Position numbers and translations under genes: made by a program. The notes below the pieces were generated by a model. That model was not told the DNA's origin and made no database searches. It worked only from the letters and a program-made list of their open reading frames with translations. DNA of 38,527 nucleotides from a virus, in IMG/VR virus record IMGVR_UViG_3300025102_000093, positions 1-38,527 of that record; one strand, written 5' to 3'. Shown piece after piece: positions 16,346 through 29,660 of this stretch; position 1 is the first letter of the stretch, and each line of letters starts with the position of its first letter.

Positions 16346-17086
16346 GTGCGTCTTATCAGAGAAAATAACAGTTTCATAATTACTGATCTAAAAAGAGAAT
16401 CTAAATACGACTATCAGAAATATACACGAGACAACGACCTCGGCTCACGGCACTATAATGTTGGTAACAAAAAAATACCGAGTGTTACAACCATATTATC
16501 GGCTACACAATCTGAAGAAAAGAAGGCAGGACTAGATGCTTGGAGAGAAAGGGTCGGATACCAAGAAGCTGCTAGAATTACCTCTCAGGCAGCTCTCAGA
16601 GGGACGGAGATGCACTATGTACTAGAAAACTACATAGATGGGCGTGGATACCTAAATCTCTCTCCAGAGGGGGCTCAGGCACGTCTAATGGCACATGAAA
16701 TAGTAAACAATCTAGATAAGTTGAAAATAGTGTATGGCAATGAGGTTTGTCTAGCATACGAGGATCTATGGGCAGGAGCCACTGATGTGGTGGGTTTATA
16801 TGATGATAAGCCTACAATATTAGACTTCAAACAAAGTAATAAACCTAAAAGAGAAGAATATGTTGAAGATTATTATTACCAAATAGCAGCATATTCACTA
16901 GCCCACAAAAAACAATATGGACCAATAACACAAGGACTTATATGTATTTGTACTAAAGATGTGATCTATCAAGAGTTTAAAATGGACGAGATAAAATTAA
17001 AAGAATATGAAGATAAGTGGATGGAAAGAGTAAACAAGTATCATGAAACTAAAGCCACTTCTGAACCTGCTCTCCAAGAGTCTTAG
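16346..17086 (+). CDS. PD-(D/E)XK exonuclease (recombination type)
   Basis: 246 residues from a GTG. Core motifs: 'RGTEMHYVLENYI' (helix with the conserved Glu/His), 'EDLWAGATDVVG' (catalytic Asp), 'TILDFKQSNKPK' (Asp-Phe-Lys, the E/D-x-K element) and 'EYVEDYYYQIAAYSLAH' (Gln-x-x-x-Tyr helix). This full set identifies a lambda-exonuclease/RecB-like nuclease of the type encoded by many marine phages. Likely role: DNA end resection in recombination or host DNA degradation. Its 3' end overlaps by 38 nt the 3' end of the convergent helicase gene on the other strand. Confidence 0.8.
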   Translation: MRLIRENNSFIITDLKRESKYDYQKYTRDNDLGSRHYNVGNKKIPSVTTILSATQSEEKKAGLDAWRERVGYQEAARITSQAALRGTEMHYVLENYIDGRGYLNLSPEGAQARLMAHEIVNNLDKLKIVYGNEVCLAYEDLWAGATDVVGLYDDKPTILDFKQSNKPKREEYVEDYYYQIAAYSLAHKKQYGPITQGLICICTKDVIYQEFKMDEIKLKEYEDKWMERVNKYHETKATSEPALQES

Positions 17087-18485
17087 CAGATAATTCTATT
17101 TTGTTTTCTAAAGAATTGAGAACCATTTCATCAATAGTATCTCTAGCTATAATATCTATAATTGTGACTTGACCAGTTTGACCATGCCTATGAGCACGAT
17201 CTTCGCTTTGCCAACGGACTTCCAAATTATAAGAATTGCTAAAATATATAACATGCCTAGCAGCAGTAAGGGTAAGACCATAACCACCAACGGTAGGATT
17301 ACCAACGAGGAAGCGACATCTGTCATTATGTTGAAAAGTTTCAACAGCATCGTTACGAACTTCAACAGAATCTTTTCCGTATATCGAAACCACTGAGTCT
17401 GCGCCATAAGTCTCCCTAAGTTTAGTTTTAATCATTTCTATGTTGTGTACGTAATTGGCCCATATTATACACTTGTCCTCAGTCTCCTCCAATATATTCA
17501 TGAGTTCATTAAGTTTAGGATTAGTTTTAAATTCTACTATTTTATCATCATTAGTTTTAACAAAACCATTTGTTACTTGTTGTAGCTTTAGTAGTTCAGT
17601 GAGTTTGTTATTAAAAGAAACTTTTTCATCTTGTATTTTAGCCATAGCCAATACTTTTAATTCTTGATAAGCTTTGTTTTGTTCTGCAGATAAATCAACA
17701 TGTCTTTGTATGTACATTTTATCAGGTATATCTAAACATTCTTTTTTTCTTACTCTGTATGAAAAGTGTTTAAGTTTATATTCTAGTTCATCCAAATTTA
17801 CATAATATTTAGGTATTTGTATTTTGTACCCACCTTTCTCAATGTTATACATCACAGCATATCGAGATTTAAATACAGTAAAGTTATCGTACCCTAATAA
17901 TTTTTTATCTAAGAAAGCACATTGTGAAAATAAATCTAATGGAGATTTAGTGACAGGAGATCCTGTCAGAATTCTTTTATATCTTGCTAATTGTCCAAGT
18001 TTTACAATTGTCTTTGTTCTGGATGCTTTTAAATTTTTGATTGTCGTGCTTTCATCTACAATAATCATAGACCTCATACCATATTTTGAAAGCTTTTCTT
18101 CAAGCCATTTTTTACCTGAGTCATGAGATAATGCTTCAACATTCATCAATATAAATGTAAGTTTGTTAGGATCTAGTTTAAATTTTTTTTCTTTAGTAAC
18201 TTTCCAAATAAAAATATTACAATCTTCAGGACAATGTGTTTGTATTTCTTTTAACCAATTACGATAAACAGAATTAGGTGCAATGACAAAAGCAAAATCA
18301 ACTCTTTTGTCTTGAAATAGATAAGCTGCATTATCAATAGCTACTTTTGTCTTACCTGTTCCCATCTCCATAAAATAAGCAAAGTTATAATCTTTTGCAC
18401 CTTCTCGTAACGCTTGCCTTTGATGTTTGAACGGTTCTGTTTTATAATTATACACTGCGAATTTTTTTATTTTATTTATTTGCAA
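17049..18485 (-). CDS. SNF2/DEAD-like superfamily 2 helicase
   Basis: 478 residues on the minus strand. Motif I 'MEMGTGKTKVAI' (residues 39-50), motif II 'IIVDESTTIKN' with a DEST variant of DEAH (144-147), motif III 'LTGSPVTKSPLDL', and C-terminal motifs 'GGYGLTLTAARHVIYF' and 'RWQSEDRAHRHGQTGQV' (motif VI with Arg finger). This is the Swi2/Snf2-like helicase family common in phages. Likely roles are remodelling or unwinding during replication or recombination. The first possible start is TTG at 18485; GTG at 18455 is an alternative. It is the only large gene on the minus strand and is divergent from the next gene with 42 nt between. Confidence 0.9.
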   Translation of the reverse strand: MQINKIKKFAVYNYKTEPFKHQRQALREGAKDYNFAYFMEMGTGKTKVAIDNAAYLFQDKRVDFAFVIAPNSVYRNWLKEIQTHCPEDCNIFIWKVTKEKKFKLDPNKLTFILMNVEALSHDSGKKWLEEKLSKYGMRSMIIVDESTTIKNLKASRTKTIVKLGQLARYKRILTGSPVTKSPLDLFSQCAFLDKKLLGYDNFTVFKSRYAVMYNIEKGGYKIQIPKYYVNLDELEYKLKHFSYRVRKKECLDIPDKMYIQRHVDLSAEQNKAYQELKVLAMAKIQDEKVSFNNKLTELLKLQQVTNGFVKTNDDKIVEFKTNPKLNELMNILEETEDKCIIWANYVHNIEMIKTKLRETYGADSVVSIYGKDSVEVRNDAVETFQHNDRCRFLVGNPTVGGYGLTLTAARHVIYFSNSYNLEVRWQSEDRAHRHGQTGQVTIIDIIARDTIDEMVLNSLENKIELSAKTLGEQVQKWL

Positions 18486-27902: not shown

Positions 27903-28071
27903 AGAGTTTTTTACAATAGAACTCGATCTAGAAAGTAACAACGTTACATTATACGTAAATGGAGAACTTAGAAATAAAATACATACGGTCAAAGCAGAGC
28001 CATTGTTTGACCGTATGCTTAAAATCGCTAAACTAAAGTTTTTAAAAATGCGAGATCAGATTGAACAATAA
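27865..28071 (+). CDS. Small hypothetical protein upstream of the methyltransferase
   Basis: 68 residues (or 64 from Met at 27877). 'FFTIELDLESNNVTLYVNGE' is beta-forming, followed by a basic helix 'LFDRMLKIAKLKFLKMRDQI'. Overlaps the upstream gene by 38 nt and the methyltransferase start by 11 nt. Not recognised. Confidence 0.5.
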   Translation: MVVQMDPKKIKGKEFFTIELDLESNNVTLYVNGELRNKIHTVKAEPLFDRMLKIAKLKFLKMRDQIEQ

Positions 28072-29134
28072 GCTTAAAGTATTAGATTTATTTAGTGGGA
28101 TTGGAGGTTTTAGTTTAGGCCTTCATTCCACTGGTATATTTGATACTATTAAGTTTGTAGAGTTTGATAAATATTGTCAGAAAGTTTTAAATAAAAATTT
28201 TCCAAACATACCAATTGAAGGAGATATAAGAAATGTCAAAGGAACAGAATTCGAAGCAGATGTCATTACTGGAGGATTCCCATGCCAACCATTCAGCGTT
28301 GCAGGAAGACAAAAAGGAACAAACGACAACCGCTATCTCTGGCCAGAAATGTTTAGACTCATTAAAGAAATTAAACCAGAATTCGTTATTGGGGAGAATG
28401 TGCAAGGAATTATTAACCTCCAAGACGGCATGGTACTCAGACAGGTGCTCAACGACTTGGAAGGTGAAGGTTTCGAAGTCCAATGTTTTCTTATTCCAGC
28501 TTCGGGCATCGGTGCTTGGCACCAAAGGAACCGAACATGGATTATTGGCCACTCCAAACACAATGGATTACTTGCCTCCGAGAAGCGCAGCAGGGACAAA
28601 AAAATTAATGGAGGGACATCGGAAGGGCAGAACCAAACCATCAAATCTGAGAGAACAAGTGGATCCTCAAACGATGGCAATGTATCCAACTCCATCAGTA
28701 GCTTGCGAGGAAGGTGGAGAACAATCGGAGAGAGTAGAGAGGACCAAATCTGGAGGTTTCTTACTAAGGAAAAAGAACAATCCGAACATGACATACGGAG
28801 CCAAACTATCGGACGCAATGCTTTATCTAGAGAAGGAGAAGAAGATGTATCGATCTCCAATGGTATCGGACTTCAAGGACATGGCCTACAATCCAATAAC
28901 GAACAAGAAGAGAGGAGTACAGATCAAACTACCTCATCAAGTATTGGCCAACAACAAACCTGGTGGACGCTTGAATCCTCTGTTTGTGGAATTCCTAATG
29001 GGATTTCCTATGAATTGGACAAAGACAGAGCAAGCAGAATCAAAACCCTCGGAAACGCAATCGTCCCACAAATCGCAAGAGAAATAGGTTTAGCTTTAAA
29101 AAAAGTTTTAAATGATTCATCTAGAGATAACTAG
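28061..29134 (+). CDS. DNA C5-cytosine methyltransferase
   Basis: 357 residues from TTG at 28061. Motif I 'LDLFSGIGGFSLGL' (residues 8-21, AdoMet), motif III 'GDI' (54-56), motif IV 'GGFPCQPFSVAG' with catalytic Cys75, motif VI 'GENVQG' (111-116), motif VIII 'HQRNRTWIIG' (154-163) and motif X 'LGNAIVPQIAREIG' at the C-terminus. Residues 165-320 (target recognition region) are polar and low in hydrophobics. A second long gene lies nested in the +1 frame from 28233 to 29087, which likely constrains this region. It could protect phage DNA from restriction or alter host methylation; the target sequence is unknown. Confidence 0.9.
   Translation: MNNKLKVLDLFSGIGGFSLGLHSTGIFDTIKFVEFDKYCQKVLNKNFPNIPIEGDIRNVKGTEFEADVITGGFPCQPFSVAGRQKGTNDNRYLWPEMFRLIKEIKPEFVIGENVQGIINLQDGMVLRQVLNDLEGEGFEVQCFLIPASGIGAWHQRNRTWIIGHSKHNGLLASEKRSRDKKINGGTSEGQNQTIKSERTSGSSNDGNVSNSISSLRGRWRTIGESREDQIWRFLTKEKEQSEHDIRSQTIGRNALSREGEEDVSISNGIGLQGHGLQSNNEQEERSTDQTTSSSIGQQQTWWTLESSVCGIPNGISYELDKDRASRIKTLGNAIVPQIAREIGLALKKVLNDSSRDN
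28233..29087 (+). CDS. Nested gene overlapping the C5 methyltransferase in +1 frame
   Basis: 284 residues, entirely inside the methyltransferase gene, +1 frame. A consensus AAGGAG (28218-28223) lies 9 nt before its ATG and is encoded by the Glu-Gly-Asp codons of methyltransferase motif III. Its sequence is protein-like, with Trp, Tyr, Pro and Phe: 'YSDRCSTTWKVKVSKSN', 'HGLLATPNTMDYLPPRSAA', 'GRTKPSNLREQV', 'MYPTP' and 'GGRLNPLFVEFLMGFPMNWT' (244-263). From memory, proteins with TPNTMD, YPTP and 'GGxLNPxxVExLMGxPxxWT' are widespread next to or overlapping C5 methylases in phages, mostly unnamed. A function linked to methylation or target recognition is inferred. A chance open frame of this length is very unlikely in such AT-rich DNA. 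Confidence 0.75.
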   Translation: MSKEQNSKQMSLLEDSHANHSALQEDKKEQTTTAISGQKCLDSLKKLNQNSLLGRMCKELLTSKTAWYSDRCSTTWKVKVSKSNVFLFQLRASVLGTKGTEHGLLATPNTMDYLPPRSAAGTKKLMEGHRKGRTKPSNLREQVDPQTMAMYPTPSVACEEGGEQSERVERTKSGGFLLRKKNNPNMTYGAKLSDAMLYLEKEKKMYRSPMVSDFKDMAYNPITNKKRGVQIKLPHQVLANNKPGGRLNPLFVEFLMGFPMNWTKTEQAESKPSETQSSHKSQEK

Positions 29135-29660
29135 TAAAACAGATGAAAAGCTCCTTCAATCAATGGCTAAACATTATACTAAACCGAAGGGGTTTGTAGG
29201 AAGATCTATTTGTTATGCGATTTACTACGATAATATTTATTATGGCCACATTATTGGTGGCAGCTGCACTTTATTTTTACCTGGACGCAACGAATACTTT
29301 GGAATTGATAAATCAAAATTTAAACATATTGTAAATAATATTTTTTATCATGTTGAAAAAGTAAATGGAAAGTATCCAATTCGTAACTTTACTTCTAAAG
29401 TTTTAGCAGCTTGGAGGGATAAAATAAATGTTGATTGGCTTAATAAATATGGAAATAAGGTCATAGGTTTTGAATCATTAATAGAACCACCAAGAACTGC
29501 AGATCTATATAAAAAAGATAAATGGACATTAGTAGGTAAGACTTATGGATATACTTGTAAAAGAATTCCTGGAAAAGAAAAAGGTATGTTTAAGACTGGT
29601 AAAAGAATTTGGGATAGAAAAAATTTAAAACCTAAGTTAGTTTACTGTCGTGGGTTGTAA
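29112..29660 (+). CDS. DUF4338/DruA-like or Mom-like protein
   Basis: 182 residues. The layout 'KHYTKPKGFVGRSICYAIYY', 'YYGHIIGGSC', 'HIVNNIFYHVEKVNGKYPIR', 'NFTSKVLAAWRDKINVDWLN', 'YGNKVIGFESLIEPPRTADL' and 'WTLVGKTYGYTCKRI' parallels DUF4338 (the Druantia DruA domain): His-Tyr start, Asn-Asn, Arg-Asn-Phe, Trp...Tyr-Gly...Glu-Ser, and a Val-Gly-x-Thr-x-Gly end. The fold may be related to GNAT-like Mom proteins, so a DNA or nucleobase modification role is possible. It starts inside the last codons of the C5 methyltransferase (23-nt overlap), which supports functional coupling. Assignment is tentative. Confidence 0.6.
   Translation: MIHLEITSKTDEKLLQSMAKHYTKPKGFVGRSICYAIYYDNIYYGHIIGGSCTLFLPGRNEYFGIDKSKFKHIVNNIFYHVEKVNGKYPIRNFTSKVLAAWRDKINVDWLNKYGNKVIGFESLIEPPRTADLYKKDKWTLVGKTYGYTCKRIPGKEKGMFKTGKRIWDRKNLKPKLVYCRGL

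Follow-up and report, generated by a model that had tools for sequence, protein, structure and literature searches.

Two C5-cytosine methyltransferases built from separate polypeptides, M.EcoHK31I above all, are among the described systems closest to the gene pair reported here. As summarised in PMC3404938, the two-polypeptide enzyme M.EcoHK31I (YGGCCR) carries motifs I-VIII and X on its large polypeptide, to which the predicted target-recognition domain (TRD) is also assigned, and motif IX on the small one; M.AquI (CYCGRG) is in the same source a split enzyme, with motif IX and a portion of the variable region located in the small subunit. Our pair lies in IMG/VR virus record IMGVR_UViG_3300025102_000093, analysed over its whole length (positions 1 to 38,527; hereafter the window), a 38.5-kb record with phage structural and replication genes. 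It consists of alpha (28061-29134, + strand; 357 residues, TTG start), a C5-cytosine methyltransferase catalytic subunit by its match to Pfam PF00145 (E 3e-54), and beta (28233-29087, + strand; 284 residues, ATG start), an open reading frame (ORF) nested in the +1 frame of alpha. Beta is very probably the target-recognition subunit of a split C5 methyltransferase, providing the TRD and motif IX, with catalysis and motif X left to alpha.

One gene reportedly encodes both polypeptides of M.EcoHK31I, the small one in an alternative frame; M.EaeI is a similar two-polypeptide enzyme. Alpha and beta divide their motifs as M.EcoHK31I does, a likeness taken from the published description and not from sequence. 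They differ from M.EcoHK31I in that beta is larger and phage-borne and combines an N-terminal domain that is conserved with an array of what we call PTP modules that varies. M.AquI splits its variable region and has motif X on the small subunit; the genes in the window are nested, and alpha carries motif X. Multispecific C5 enzymes of Bacillus phages are described in PMC8936443 as having several tandem TRDs; in M.SPRI, M.H2I and M.phi-BssHII these sit in one single-frame polypeptide, whereas the modules in the window belong to an overprinted separate subunit. The motif division is known from M.EcoHK31I; what would be new is a recognition region placed in beta as an array of modules. Our literature search, which left subscription papers mostly outside its reach, found no description of the nested arrangement in phages.

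Two open frames in one gene

The initial annotation had reported a 284-codon frame at 28233-29087, open in the +1 frame of alpha and preceded by AAGGAG 9 nt before its ATG, and both observations were confirmed. The hexamer (28218-28223, + strand), the putative ribosome binding site of beta, is formed by the alpha codons GAA-GGA-GAT (Glu-Gly-Asp). That such a frame should not stay open by chance was borne out by simulation: none of 5000 synonymous reshufflings of alpha left the beta frame open (mean 9.9 stops), nor did any of 5000 resamplings with the window's own codon usage (mean 18.1 stops). The longest off-frame opening among 12 other genes was 61 codons, and the +2 frame of alpha holds 16 stops. 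The DNA had been called very AT-rich; the alpha/beta region, at 44% G+C in a window of 33% G+C, is less AT-rich than its surroundings.

The antisense frames of the methyltransferase gene had also been described as unusually open. They correspond to 28187-28561 and 28333-28860 of the window (both on the - strand) and are fairly open in many relatives: for two of the three antisense frames an opening of at least 100 codons is present in 81% and 50% of related loci. This openness is possibly a by-product of double coding and requires no further gene.

The loci of relatives were chosen by similarity, and the counts below describe that selection and are not a survey of prevalence. Each of the 80 related IMG/VR loci, like two phage records, had both frames open with beta in the +1 frame of alpha; the alpha start codon lies at the same place in relatives and is ATG, GTG or TTG, and a Shine-Dalgarno-like sequence precedes the beta ATG in 65 of the 70 complete betas. 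The overprinting proposal depended on the nested frame keeping its motifs among homologues, and the homologue search found that it does; no stops were found in the nested frame of close relatives with an intact methyltransferase. A profile of beta had 413 confirmed places in the genome collection; the best 80 of these 413 come from many phyla, and in 79 of the best 80 bacterial-genome loci beta is nested in the +1 frame.

Architecture classes were assigned by hidden Markov model detection of the core, which replaced a strict regular expression that missed many methyltransferase cores, and by regular expressions for motifs IX and X; as the latter classes rest on regular expressions, the counts are approximate. 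Motif IX in beta together with motif X in alpha was found in 70/80 marine, 41/60 other viral and 73/80 bacterial loci; six further bacterial loci among the best 80 are nested with motif X in beta or not found, and motif X lies inside beta in 11 of 300 classified relatives. As far as can be read from these sequences, the same nested arrangement occurs widely in phages and bacteria. A relative of beta with 31% identity, gp57 of Paenibacillus phage Bloom, is nested in the +1 frame of gp56, and several phage records label both ORFs DNA cytosine methyltransferase.

Selection along the two frames

Codon-position rates were computed from relatives sharing 75% identity or more with the window. In the alpha-only start of the gene (motifs I-III) the third position of alpha changes fastest (0.355 against 0.12 and 0.08). 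Over alpha motifs IV-VIII lies the N-terminal domain of beta (residues 1-104; 28233-28544, + strand), in which both frames are constrained, and here the alpha third-position rate drops from 0.355 to 0.147, as expected if beta constrains alpha there. The third position of beta then takes over as the fastest, at 0.37 (0.23 and 0.22 for the other two positions) in the VIII-IX interval that corresponds to the putative TRD and at 0.257 (0.14 and 0.145) within motif IX. At motif X the third position of alpha is again the fastest (0.277 against 0.10). Conserved motifs had been noted in alternating parts of the two frames, and the rates agree, swapping roles at the motif boundaries: both frames are selected in turn, with alpha dominating in I-VIII and X and beta in the region between.

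Pairwise alignment mixes unlike modules, and the test was therefore repeated within modules of one type. In matched beta modules the first, second and third positions of beta changed at rates of 0.133, 0.080 and 0.315. Single-base codon changes in these modules were silent in beta in 83% of cases and silent in alpha in 4%, a large contrast, though drawn from module pair counts that are phylogenetically non-independent.

A further, independent test concerned Trp76 of beta, which is invariant and can be encoded only if the alpha Leu codon across from it reads NTG; upstream Leu codons of the same genes served as background. All 67 marine loci had NTG here, against a background of 5%; so did 34 of 36 other viral loci (background 25%) and 58 of 59 bacterial loci (background 36%). 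The N-terminal domain of beta, which only independent initiation would produce, is therefore under selection.

Beta segments in single-chain relatives and the recognition modules

The C-terminal part of beta consists of modules that open with a YPTP-like motif, followed by GGRLNPLFVEFLMGFPMNWT. In the window there are three modules of the PTP type (28545-28964, + strand), assigned by clustering to types A, B and L (LATPNTMD..., YPTPSVAC..., YRSPMVSD...), and after them the predicted motif IX, GRLNPLFVEFLMGFPMNWTKTE (28965-29030, + strand), which was placed by its register with Dcm, by the fast third position of beta and by its VIII-X place in single-frame relatives. Beta matches PHROG 1008 ('DNA methyltransferase') over almost its full length (E 1.1e-24; residues 2-275 to positions 30-290 of 329), a family named by annotation alone in which the role as a subunit is not stated; Pfam and NCBIfam searches with beta gave no match. 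With this match, and with M.EcoHK31I published (PMC3404938), the earlier remark that proteins of this kind have no described function was not quite right.

Five viral contigs (L128, L136, L145, L230 and L232) encode single-frame enzymes in which motifs I-VIII are followed by PTP modules, then by the LMGFP motif and finally by motif X, and a sixth (L301) has the same architecture but is 5'-truncated. By hhalign, profiles of beta fall on the VIII-X interval of L128 (E 4.8e-22) and L136 (E 2e-11). Intermediate forms exist as well: in L097, L125, L129 and L130 alpha stops after motif VIII and a +1 beta holds the TRD, IX and X, a division similar to that of M.AquI and shared by gp77/gp76 of mycobacteriophage Peaches. 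Because of the single-frame, intermediate, PHROG and Dcm comparisons we regard beta as equivalent to the part of a C5 enzyme that recognises DNA, and the alpha stretch beneath it as a linker to motif X. The comparisons across loci demonstrate that beta is a real gene, that beta selection dominates the VIII-X span and that parts of beta match the VIII-X segment of single-chain enzymes. The initial annotation had proposed an overprinted, functionally linked protein, perhaps one that partners the methyltransferase or modulates target recognition. This proposal is supported by homology, by codon-position selection and by the natural single-frame fusions, which also sharpen it: beta would be the TRD and motif IX subunit itself.

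Four further candidates for the single-frame class (L099, L116, L212 and L271) were not counted, since each may reflect a frameshift in the assembly, a deletion or a rearrangement. In Peaches (L226:1062-2157) alpha stops after VIII and its partner has the TRD, IX and X; the two ORFs share 23 nt, read in the +1 relation, and are annotated as separate DNA methyltransferases, as in many related mycobacteriophages, and from their motif content look like two halves of one C5 enzyme. Escherichia phage ESSI2_ev129 (L227:1257-2267 and 1285-2208) encodes a C5 methyltransferase of an unusual kind: its motifs seem to stand in permuted order, with a motif-I-like FAGIG after the first ~50 residues, and nested in its +1 frame is an ORF with PTP modules and GGQLNPALSLWLMGLPPEW. 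An E. coli search with this gene gave two partial matches only.

The existence of single-frame relatives would also suit programmed frameshifting, in which ribosomes would read motifs I-VIII of alpha, slip by +1 to reach the TRD/IX frame and, in this family, shift back, giving one chain. Such a shift is conceivable in Peaches with its short overlap. We nevertheless find this explanation very improbable for the window, as beta has its own Shine-Dalgarno sequence and ATG in nearly all relatives, motif X would require the second shift back, and the N-terminal 100 residues of beta, absent from a frameshift product, are under selection by both the Trp76 codon and the slowing of the alpha third position.

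Among 66 marine betas there are 2-7 modules ahead of motif IX. Clustering gave 33 module clusters, 23 of them recurrent, and many orders, from A-B-L in the window to A-E-E-D-B-J-O in L067. A repeated sequence, AAGATGTATCCAACACCA, is common to the module boundaries and could aid module exchange. Recent exchange was indicated by only five pairs with a module at least 93% identical and an N-terminal region at most 80% identical, all of them against L080; as this nucleotide support is small, the claim of shuffling rests on differing module order. The TRDs of the Bacillus phage multispecific enzymes are similar in size to PTP modules (~30-55 residues). By analogy with those enzymes each PTP module may read one DNA target, and the 2-7 shuffled modules of beta suggest multispecific methylation. 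In M.phi-BssHII the TRDs lie at separated places; L301 and L005 have an extra PTP module after motif IX. In L005 (3380-3796), L029 (3626-4042) and about 20 other loci beta continues past motif IX with a 139-residue extension, made of another RTPTAMD module and a domain ending HWLRSDHCFAYPTVEYWN...ESDWE, which has no Pfam match; beta of the window is without it.

The published layout of M.EcoHK31I invites a second alternative, in which the TRD stays in alpha and beta gives only motif IX. The motif positions agree with the description in PMC3404938, alpha having I-VIII and X and beta having IX. Against this stand the single changes between VIII and IX, silent far more often in beta than in alpha, the single-frame enzymes that hold beta-type modules in the VIII-IX interval, and the composition of alpha itself: beneath the beta modules it is low-complexity and 80% polar, with 16% hydrophobic residues compared with 39% in the alpha core. 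We regard a TRD in alpha as very improbable.

Highly improbable, in our judgement, is a beta that acts outside the active enzyme, as a regulator or inhibitor of alpha or as an unrelated overprinted protein. The lack of any Pfam or NCBIfam match would fit such a protein, but beta segments fill the VIII-X place in single-chain enzymes, and beta itself has motif X in other phages. That the +1 frame is unexpressed and open by chance or codon bias, as the higher G+C of the region might suggest, has a negligible chance of being right and is already refuted at the level of selection by the closed frames of the shuffles, the conservation in the relatives examined and the selection on the beta frame.

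Structure prediction, proposed mechanism and neighbouring genes

Several results weigh against beta as the TRD and motif IX subunit. AlphaFold modelled beta alone poorly (predicted local distance difference test score, pLDDT, 54; predicted template modelling score 0.23; 54-sequence alignment), and PDB sequence searches with beta and with its profile gave nothing significant. The beta LMGFP motif was set by hhalign on motif IX of E. coli Dcm, RRLTPRECARLMGF, in register over 16 residues, an alignment that is not significant alone (prob 0.2). The Pfam match of alpha reaches motif X without requiring beta, and M.EcoHK31I has its published TRD in the large subunit, the opposite of the assignment to beta to which selection and homology point in the window. 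The single-chain enzyme L232 was modelled with a pLDDT of 73, and its best PDB match by Foldseek was M.HhaI (E 2.7e-16); the module region is of low confidence (residues 194-271 below 50), and many of the best matches span only the ~185-residue catalytic core. The top M.HhaI match and some others span the whole L232 chain with high root-mean-square deviation. The predictions support the enzyme family and not the fold of the TRD.

Alpha has the motifs expected of PF00145, namely I, IV (PCQ), VI (ENV), VIII and X, all on the + strand. Motif I, DLFSGIGGF (28085-28111), the predicted S-adenosylmethionine (SAM) binding site, falls in invariant columns of the relatives' alignment, and M.HhaI matches alpha over residues 5-162. 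Motif IV, GGFPCQPFS (28271-28297), contains the predicted catalytic Cys75 and an invariant PCQ; motif VI, GENVQ (28391-28405), is invariant and motif VIII, QRNRTW (28523-28540), conserved. Motif X, RIKTLGNAIVPQIARE (29031-29084), has an invariant LGN/P, and the overlying tail of beta is weakly constrained. Motif IX and the TRD are not in the same polypeptide as this core: in nearly all relatives, as in the window, it is the +1 frame that encodes the LMGFP-type motif IX.

In the mechanism we propose, alpha (frame 0) would fold, with motifs I-VIII, into the domain that binds SAM and carries out catalysis, and would add motif X at its end; between VIII and X it would be only an open polar linker beneath the beta modules. 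Beta would initiate independently at its own Shine-Dalgarno sequence and ATG and supply the DNA-recognition domain, a tandem of three PTP modules acting as TRDs, and motif IX. Pairing of the two, probably through the N-terminal ~100 residues of beta and the IX/X region, would give the active enzyme, which would methylate phage DNA, presumably against host restriction. That the two subunits form a heterodimer, that the enzyme is active, that each module has one target and that methylation counters restriction are inferences. We give an even chance to the broader reading that a large family of phage and bacterial C5 enzymes hides its whole recognition machinery in an overprinted +1 gene, with exchangeable modules each having a target of its own, combinatorial multispecific methylation and an alpha frame reduced there to an open linker.

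If the proposal is right, many of the 'DNA cytosine methyltransferases' annotated in phages and bacteria are only half enzymes, and the half that reads the sequence sits in a nested gene unseen by Pfam and NCBIfam and omitted or called hypothetical in some records. Alpha cloned alone would then look inactive, specificity predicted from alpha would be meaningless, and swaps would make specificity testable module by module. The locus would also be a clear natural case of two long overlapping frames dividing one enzyme, with selection changing frame at the motif boundaries.

Directly 3' of the pair lies a gene of 182 residues (29112-29660, + strand) with a weak, below-cutoff match to DruA/DUF4338 (PF14236, E 2.7e-4), which recurs 3' of the same methyltransferase pair in L003, L009, L029, L034, L068 and L074. 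Elsewhere in the window a helicase-like gene (17049-18485, - strand; PHROG 62, E 8.6e-121) runs against the direction of almost every other large gene.
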